From a virus, in the IMG/VR virus record IMGVR_UViG_3300009551_001421, positions 1 through 30,095 of that record: a stretch of 30,095 bases of DNA; one strand, 5' to 3'. The notes below the pieces were generated by a model that was given only the letters and a program-made list of their open reading frames with translations, was not told the origin of the DNA and ran no database searches. How positions within the stretch are numbered: the first letter of the stretch is position 1; each line of letters opens with the position of its first letter. The position numbers and the translations under genes are program-made. Of this stretch, positions 1,340 to 3,139 are shown piece after piece.

Positions 1340-1573
1340 TCATGCCCCAATCACTGCTGGCTTCCATCCCTTTTTCGGGGCCTCTGCCGTGCGGCGCGAT
1401 TCTACCGCCGACAGCAGTACCACCGGCCGGCCGCGCGCATTCGAGATAAACGGAATTCCAATTTCGCGCAGGAATGCAGCCTGCATTTCGTACTTGGTCT
1501 GTTTGATTCCGGCCCGCGTGCTGCCACGCCGGATTCCAGTAAGTTCATCAAGCTCGCTAGAATTTAGAAACAT
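1340..1573 (-). CDS. DUF4224 family protein
   Basis: Small protein of 77 aa whose N-terminus (FLNSSELDELTGI) and the later segment GRPVVLLSAVE match what I know of DUF4224, a family commonly found beside phage integrases. The function is not established; the position immediately upstream of int suggests a DNA-binding accessory or excisionase-like role, which is inference. I chose the ATG at 1573 because AAGGAAAA lies 5 nt before it. An ATG at 1588 would add five residues and create an ATGA overlap with the methyltransferase stop, so translational coupling is also possible. Confidence 0.8.
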   Translation of the reverse strand: MFLNSSELDELTGIRRGSTRAGIKQTKYEMQAAFLREIGIPFISNARGRPVVLLSAVESRRTAEAPKKGWKPAVIGA

Positions 1574-1584
1574 GTGTTTTTCCT

Positions 1585-2625
1585 TCATAAGAGCTCTTGC
1601 ATTACTTCGACAAAGAGCGCCGCTTGCTCGGCATTGATTGCATTGCCATAACCGCGCAGTCGTCCCACTCGGGCGGGTATCCCATGAGCCAGCGGGAATG
1701 TGCCGGGTTCAACTGGCCGCCACTTTCCATCCCGGCAGAGCAGCCAATCAGCAGGCTTCCAAAGGCCGTTAGCCGGGCCGGTTGTGGATTCGATGCGAGA
1801 TTCGCCTGACGCGGCAACTGATCTAGCCGCAGAGATCCGTCCGCCCGCGGCTTGATGTCCGCACCGCTGTCCTTCCAGTCCCGGCTGGTCGGCGTAGTCC
1901 ACCCCGCCAATATCGCTGCGTGATTCAAGGTGATGTTTGGAGTAGTGAAGTCCTGGGATGGCTGACGCACTGCGTCCGTAGCTGTCGTGCTGGGCCATCC
2001 GGCCAGATGCGCGTAATCCTTCAGACCCGAATGCACGCCGTTGCCGCTCGGCCTCTTTTTTCCGCTGATCTTCTGCATAGCGACCTTCCAGCTGCCGCCT
2101 CCGGAATGATCGTGCGCTGCCGGAGTAGGCCATCCAGTACGTGCGGTCTCGGATGTGCGGAGCACCGACGCCCGCAGACGGGAACGCAACCGCCCCGAAG
2201 GCATAGCCCACGGCTTCCAGGTCATCTTGTACAAGGTCGAGCCAAGGATCTCCGTCCTTGCTCGCAACTTGCTCTCCAGCGATGACTGCAGGGCGGCGCT
2301 CTTGGATGAGCCAGTAGAAGGCCGGCCAGAGATGCCGCTCGTCACCAAATCCAGCTCCTTGGCCTGCCGTGGAGAAAGGTTGGCACGGACAGGAACCAGT
2401 CCAAACAGGTCGATCATCTGGCCAGCCGGCGCGGCGTAGCGCGAGTGACCAGCCACCGATGCCGGCGAAGAAATGGCACTGCTCAAATCCTCGCAAGTCG
2501 TCAGGTCGTACATCCTCTATGCTCCTGGTATCTACTTCACCGGCGGCTACGTGGCCACCTTTAATAAGCTCGCGAAGCCATGCAGCCGCGAACGGGTCGA
2601 TTTCGTTGTAATAGGCGCCCGACAT
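1585..2625 (-). CDS. Phage C5-cytosine DNA methyltransferase
   Basis: Predicted DNA (cytosine-5) methyltransferase, 346 aa, transferring methyl from S-adenosylmethionine to phage or host DNA, probably as protection from restriction. Visible motifs are FAGIGG (53-58, motif I), PCQPFS (80-85, motif IV, catalytic Cys81), GEQV (117-120, replacing the usual ENV of motif VI with EQV), RDR (159-161, motif VIII-like) and GYGNAI (325-330, motif X). Between about 170 and 285 the sequence is low in hydrophobic core and rich in charged residues, unlike an ordinary target-recognition domain; that stretch also encodes another protein in a second frame (1602-2513). The ATG overlaps the upstream stop as TGATG. 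The specificity cannot be read from sequence. Confidence 0.85.
1602..2513 (-). CDS. Overlapping ORF fully inside the methyltransferase gene
   Basis: A 303-aa open frame lies wholly inside the methyltransferase gene on the same strand, offset in frame. It has its own AGGAGC Shine-Dalgarno at 2521-2526, 7 nt before the ATG. The product looks like a real protein: [11 protein letters not shown] (46-56), a block with W99-K-P-W, three copies of a GW-(P/T)-x-P/T-x3-D motif (127-135, 172-180, 204-212) and a C-terminal [10 protein letters not shown] (275-284). The last element recalls the LxGFPxxW segment that precedes motif X in C5 methyltransferases. From memory I associate this kind of protein with phage cytosine-methylase loci, annotated as hypothetical. 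The function is unknown; a methyltransferase partner or a detached recognition domain is speculation. Confidence 0.6.
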
Positions 2626-2996
2626 CAGGCCCCCATCAAGGCCCTATCGGGACTTGGCAACGCGCTTTCCAGGCATCCGCTATAGTCGGATAAGCACAGA
2701 CGGCGCGACTTGGCGCAAGCAGGCGCATTGCGGCGCCCTTCTCCGGCATCGTCGCAGTTGATGATGTCGGCCAGTGGCACGCCACGGAATTGCCCGGCCA
2801 GTTCGTTATCCAGCTCTACCCAGGCGAATCGTTCGCCGTTGCCCAGGTGCTGACGGATGACCGATACATAGCCGGCCAGCACACCATCGTCGGGCGTGTT
2901 GAACGTGATACGGTCCAGGGACCGAGGTGGCTGCATCACGAAGTCACGCGGTTTGCTGGCGGGGGCAATCACATCAAATTTCACAGCTGCATTCAT
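2625..2996 (-). CDS. Hypothetical phage protein, 123 aa
   Basis: I do not recognise the family. The start at 2996 is supported by an AAGGAGAAG Shine-Dalgarno at 3000-3008 and an ATGA overlap with the preceding 48-aa gene; an in-frame upstream ATG (3029) lacks this. The first 80 residues look like a compact soluble domain (FAWVELDNELAGQFRGVPLADI). The last 35 residues are cysteine- and arginine-rich and unlike the rest, so the natural C-terminus may differ or the end may be degenerate. The stop overlaps the methyltransferase start (TGATG), implying coupled translation in the early operon. Confidence 0.6.
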   Translation of the reverse strand: MNAAVKFDVIAPASKPRDFVMQPPRSLDRITFNTPDDGVLAGYVSVIRQHLGNGERFAWVELDNELAGQFRGVPLADIINCDDAGEGRRNAPACAKSRRLCLSDYSGCLESALPSPDRALMGA

Positions 2997-3139
2997 TGCT
3001 TCTTCTCCTTGGTGGCCGTTACGGAGCACACGCCAAAGCGATCGACGGCGGCGGCGATCACGTCGCAGCTATGGGCTGCGATGGCGGTGTAGGAATGGCG
3101 TGCGCTGGCAGTGCGCACGACGACACGAAACGCGGTCAT
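2993..3139 (-). CDS. Small early phage protein, 48 aa
   Basis: A 48-codon frame (MTAFRVVVRT... ending TKEKKQ) is locked between its neighbours: its ATG overlaps the stop of the replication gene as ATGA (3136-3139), and its TGA overlaps the next ATG as ATGA (2993-2996). This double overlap, with alanine- and valine-rich coding and no internal stop, makes a real gene likely. Two cysteines (25 and 38) are present but no recognised domain. Such short proteins are common immediately downstream of replication genes in P2-like phages; the function is unknown. Confidence 0.65.
   Translation of the reverse strand: MTAFRVVVRTASARHSYTAIAAHSCDVIAAAVDRFGVCSVTATKEKKQ

Follow-up and report, generated by a model that had tools for sequence, protein, structure and literature searches.

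The locus lies in a window of 30,095 nt, positions 1 to 30,095 of the viral record IMGVR_UViG_3300009551_001421. Judged from sequence (256–1350, 8168–28751), the window resembles a temperate myovirus or prophage, with an integrase at one end, followed by replication, contractile-tail, terminase and portal-like ORFs. A 303-aa frame (1602–2513, minus strand) is situated wholly within a 346-aa methylase gene (1585–2625, minus strand) and is shifted by +1. Its coordinates, strand, length and ATG agree with a preliminary description of the window made without database searches. The features of the locus are:

1585–2625, minus strand: outer frame, C5-cytosine DNA methyltransferase (alpha), 346 aa; PF00145 (E 1e-14), phrog_363 (E 1e-86).
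1602–2513, minus strand: inner +1 frame, 303 aa, proposed beta (variable region and motif IX); phrog_1008 match over the entire product (E 3e-35), open frame, selection.
2521–2526, minus strand: Shine-Dalgarno AGGAGC of the inner ATG, formed by methylase Arg-Ser codons; AGG enrichment.
2371–2388, minus strand: methylase motif IV PCQPFS, outer residues 80–85; inner-frame selection starts about here.
2148–2387, minus strand: inner N-domain, residues about 43–122, helix and hairpin; overlaps methylase motifs IV–VIII.
2134–2166, minus strand: methylase motif VIII region, 11 residues, by alignment.
2001–2135, minus strand: inner module 1, residues 127–171, beginning GWPTPAAHD.
1905–2000, minus strand: inner module 2, residues 172–203, beginning GWPSTTATD.
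1782–1904, minus strand: inner module 3, residues 204–244.
1656–1718, minus strand: inner motif-IX segment, residues 266–286; hhalign to single-chain methylases, E 1e-6.
1636–1653, minus strand: methylase motif X GYGNAI, outer residues 325–330; synonymous constraint relaxes here.

The outer frame is a C5-cytosine methyltransferase by its PF00145 match and by motifs IV (PCQPFS), VI (EQV/ENV), VIII and X. Canonical motif IX (L-P-x-x-x-x-x-M-G-F/Y-P) is absent from the outer frame of the window and present in the +1 frame. The inner 10-residue segment reported opposite the methylase motif X region was found there. The inner protein has no match in Pfam, NCBIfam or PADLOC. The family phrog_1008 is labelled 'DNA methyltransferase' though it is devoid of catalytic motifs; the name was likely carried over from the overlapping gene. 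The methylase ATG and the stop of the upstream ORF (2625–3029, minus strand) overlap as TGATG (window 2623–2629), and the methylase 3' end runs into the start of the ORF that follows (1340–1588, minus strand). These overlaps at both ends suggest that translation may be coupled.

The inner ATG is preceded by ccAGGAGCatagaggATG, in which AGGAGC stands seven bases 5' of the start codon, as first described. The methylase motif VD-x-R-S-I sets an Arg codon at the Shine-Dalgarno position. Of 112 loci with an inner ATG, 61 use AGG at that Arg; none of the 27 loci lacking the ATG does so (Fisher p 2e-8). The share of AGG among other Arg codons is 6.8%. The inner start site is under selection. The association of AGG with ATG therefore favours independent initiation and disfavours frameshifting as the sole route.

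Homologous loci (98, found with either protein) have a stop-free inner frame in 96 cases, at +1 in every case. A broken inner frame beside a kept methylase, the situation named beforehand as speaking against a nested gene, is rare and limited to L078 and L096. Shuffling of synonymous methylase codons within each of the 98 genes yields a mean of about 1–5 stops in the inner frame per gene. For the window the shuffles have a mean of 3.7 inner-frame stops, with zero stops in fewer than 1 in 500. The third frame of the 98 loci contains 4–22 stops. Among 179 loci drawn from viral contigs and from genomes of bacteria, 176 have the overlapping pair. Because the first search used the inner protein and was biased toward it, methylases were refetched with methylase queries, from a Paenibacillus phage and a Bacteroides phage. 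The +1 ORF is longer than in 99% of shuffles in 91 of the 108 distinct genes obtained, typically 200–370 codons vs about 100, in DNA of low to medium GC content (38–60%); 83 end in an LNP-x-x-V-x-x-x-MG-F/Y segment. In mycobacteriophage Graduation the +1 frame is not special (p 0.2, shuffles), and motif IX is in frame.

Selection was followed at codon level across homologous loci. Synonymous constraint was measured at four-fold degenerate codons with unchanged amino acid, with the pre-overlap part as the baseline; pairwise comparisons share phylogeny, and effect sizes are given instead of p-values. Changes between close homologues fall on outer codon positions 1/2/3 in proportions of 18/9/74% before the overlap and 59/27/14% in the middle region, where outer position 1 is inner position 3. 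Relative third-position divergence is 1.0 at outer codons 37–65, 0.24 at 80–95, 0.14–0.71 up to 166, 0.06 at 300–312 (facing a 14-residue inner segment) and 0.80 at 324–336. Synonymous constraint on outer codons thus begins near codon 80 and eases at motif X. In middle segments, which were picked by inner identity, four-fold third-position differences are 0.37–0.40 in the inner vs 0.05–0.15 in the outer frame, and a substitution count aligned on the outer protein agrees. Amino-acid differences in the middle are 0.37–0.46 (outer) vs 0.14–0.31 (inner). The frame-to-frame relay of constraint is repeated in two independent phage sets; in one of them the value for outer third positions is about 0.6 at first, drops to 0.00–0.08 in the middle and recovers to 0.52–0.67 at motifs IX–X.

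Identity of the inner protein to that of the window, compared with synonymous shuffles, is 0.45 vs 0.35 at residues 1–42 (little constraint), 0.66 vs 0.32 at residues 43–128, 0.81 vs 0.34 at the C-terminus and 0.29 vs 0.24 in the tail past motif IX, after about residue 287 (hardly any constraint). Selection on the hidden frame spans about inner residues 43–287 and ends there. It is strong and purifying. In the middle region the inner frame is dominant; methylase third positions are nearly frozen and first positions vary. Purifying selection acts on both frames, the outer one being weakly constrained in the middle. The methylase had been called compositionally odd where the inner frame is richest; its oddity is not a matter of composition alone, since in the middle the methylase frame is under less constraint than the inner one.

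It is very improbable, and contradicted by the codon-level results, that the inner frame is no gene and a by-product of methylase sequence and codon bias. Some conserved inner residues do face methylase motifs, and in GC-rich members shuffles sometimes leave the frame open with a probability of 0.1–0.2 per locus. The methylase protein, however, cannot account for the frozen third positions, the C-terminal identity above shuffles or the start-site association, and the pattern is also present in AT-rich phages. Another reading, in which the inner frame alone matters in the middle and the outer one is an open, non-functional remnant of a frameshifted single-chain methylase, would suit the weak constraint on the outer middle. 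It is considered improbable: nearly all loci keep the outer frame free of stops through the middle, and the motif X region at its C-terminal end is conserved.

The inner protein consists of an N-domain, 1–5 modules and a C-terminal motif-IX segment. Modules have a median length of 34 residues and begin with GW-x-T/S-P; the three GW units noticed at the outset stand at residues 127, 172 and 204. Module types change ordinal position between loci, and the type of window module 3 can stand first, second or third elsewhere. The AlphaFold model of the inner protein has an overall pLDDT of 54, with 73–86 at residues 71–120 (helix and hairpin); in the model of a single-chain relative the module region is below 50. 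A profile search of the PDB, started from the inner alignment, yielded chance-level matches only, and Foldseek with the low-confidence inner model gave nothing below E 0.001.

The modules and motif IX are also present in single-chain methylases. The phrog_1008 profile also matches residues 188–381 of a single-chain methylase, and the C-terminal segments of inner and single-chain proteins align profile to profile (hhalign, E 1e-6). The motif-IX segment of the single-chain profile aligns collinearly, though weakly, with M.HhaI 272–308 (motifs IX–X), and superposition of the single-chain model on M.HhaI gives Z 24 for 238 residues. By these alignments the counterpart of the inner protein in single-chain relatives is the variable region together with motif IX. 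The inner N-domain has no counterpart in single-chain methylases. This extra domain would fit an independent phage protein, e.g., a methylase regulator or a counter-defence protein, merely sharing methylase DNA. Such a protein is unlikely: no stand-alone inner gene was found among the 179 loci (viral contigs and bacterial genomes), and its modules and motif IX are built into single-chain methylases and make up the C-terminal half where the methylase is split.

Four forms were distinguished: nested with motif IX in +1 (window type), +1 frames with modules only, split +1 pairs, and single chain. By regex-based calls, which left some loci in no class (noIX), 69 of 74 classified loci of one group have modules in +1 and motifs IX and X in the methylase frame. 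Rhodococcus phage ReT1v-2 has this form too. The division of labour varies, because in one related clade the outer frame holds both motif IX and motif X, and +1 holds modules alone. Actinophages prophiGD91-2 (gp27) and Wachhund (gp69) have a single chain with motifs I–VIII, LLPTP modules, the segment LAPAFSEWMMGWPAGWV and motif X. In Float294 and Camerico, modules with motifs IX and X form a second gene in +1, with overlaps of 14 and 59 nt. A tree of the catalytic domain gathers the nested form into essentially one large clade (63 of 68 rows; support 99/93, with the bootstrap not fully settled). The phages in this clade have both Gram-negative and Gram-positive hosts, and the other clade holds a mixture of single and split forms.

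Single loci of other structure were recorded. A Pseudodesulfovibrio MAG (L153:2879–4784) contains two methylase/inner overlapping pairs in tandem. At L160:2855–3967 the N-terminal part of the methylase is fused to the C-terminal part of the inner protein, and the methylase C-terminus is in another frame; this fusion ORF is a natural indel or an assembly error. In mycobacteriophage KashFlow (gp113/gp114, L328:1995–3879) a canonical C5-methylase is split just before motif IX (LTPLECERLQGYP); its second piece is in the +1 frame, and there is a long insert.

Programmed +1 ribosomal frameshifting could join the catalytic and inner frames into a catalytic-domain/module fusion. The offset is almost always +1, single-chain relatives of identical order exist, and hidden-frame selection peaks after motif VIII. 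Against such a fusion, the inner frame is open and selected over some 80 codons ahead of motif VIII, a stretch that shifting does not need; the frame has a start of its own, with Shine-Dalgarno and ATG both selected; and a window-type fusion would lose motif X. Frameshifting is regarded as improbable.

The split has precedents among C5-methyltransferases. The beta polypeptide of M.EcoHK31I is encoded inside alpha, in another frame; the genes of M.AquI are adjacent, not nested. The principle is therefore not new. In multispecific C5-methylases of Bacillus phages, exchangeable recognition modules stand in tandem between motifs VIII and IX. These phage enzymes are similar to the present family in the arrangement of their modules and differ in having a single frame. 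M.EcoHK31I (YGGCCR) consists of two polypeptides, with motifs I–VIII and X on the large and motif IX on the small one, and its target-recognition domain was placed on the large one (PMC3404938). M.AquI (CYCGRG) is a natural alpha/beta C5-methyltransferase split within the variable region (PMC3404938).

At the sequence level the window shows the M.EcoHK31I-type split, with motifs I–VIII and X on the large chain and IX on the small chain; nesting of beta in another frame of alpha is found in the window and in the family. The window type is like M.EcoHK31I in the two-chain split with motif IX on the small chain. It differs in the position of the recognition part (on the large subunit in M.EcoHK31I; variable-region modules in the inner frame here) and in occurrence (a bacterial restriction-modification enzyme; a widespread phage family here). 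M.AquI is similar in its alpha/beta split and different in that its small subunit has both IX and X; the Float294 and Camerico pairs are nearer to the M.AquI arrangement than the window type is. prophiGD91-2 gp27 and Wachhund gp69 share the order motifs I–VIII, PTP modules, IX, X, but have a single reading frame without a nested start.

In Escherichia K1 phages both overlapping frames are annotated, as 'C-specific methylase' and 'Mte8-like protein' (inner); no function or overlap analysis of this pair was found in the literature searched. Outside the K1 phages usually one of the two frames is annotated. The annotation of Rhodococcus phage ReT1v-2 (L330:1767–2969) has gp520 as the inner gene and a methylase fragment of 51 aa, but omits the full methylase ORF. 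No description of the overlap was found among CC-licensed PMC papers. Against this literature the breadth, the modular variable region in a hidden frame and the codon-level demonstration appear new.

Both frames are open and selected. The two overlapping frames probably encode one two-polypeptide C5-methyltransferase, with beta nested in alpha. Alpha (outer) would comprise the catalytic domain with motifs I–VIII and motif X, separated by a weakly constrained linker. Beta (inner, +1) would initiate at its own Shine-Dalgarno and ATG and would contain the N-terminal domain, 1–5 exchangeable modules of about 34 residues and motif IX. The modules would sit where the variable (target-recognition) region of C5-methylases lies. 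Alpha and beta would assemble into the active enzyme, beta being the DNA-recognition half. From sequence comparison we infer that beta is translated, that it assembles with alpha and that its modules read the DNA sequence; the hidden frame most likely encodes the DNA-target-recognising part. The preliminary description had proposed a target-recognition or partner polypeptide, and this proposal gains support from purifying selection, from the selected start site and from the apparent correspondence to variable region and motif IX.

For the family as a whole, it seems fairly likely that C5-methylases across phages keep the DNA-specificity half in an alternative frame. Selection would act first on frame 0 (catalysis), then on +1 (recognition modules and usually motif IX), and at motif X on frame 0 again; modules would be swapped in the hidden frame. 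Few long same-strand nested genes have been proven in bacteria or phages, and most such genes are recent. The present nested pair is conserved across phages whose hosts are Pseudomonadota, Bacillota, Bacteroidota and Actinomycetota; if the reading is true, it would be among the most widespread and oldest long nested genes of bacterial viruses. Since pipelines report one frame of the two, it may be that for hundreds of phage methylases specificity was sought in the wrong protein. The hidden frame as determinant of the methylated sequence is now an experimentally tractable question.
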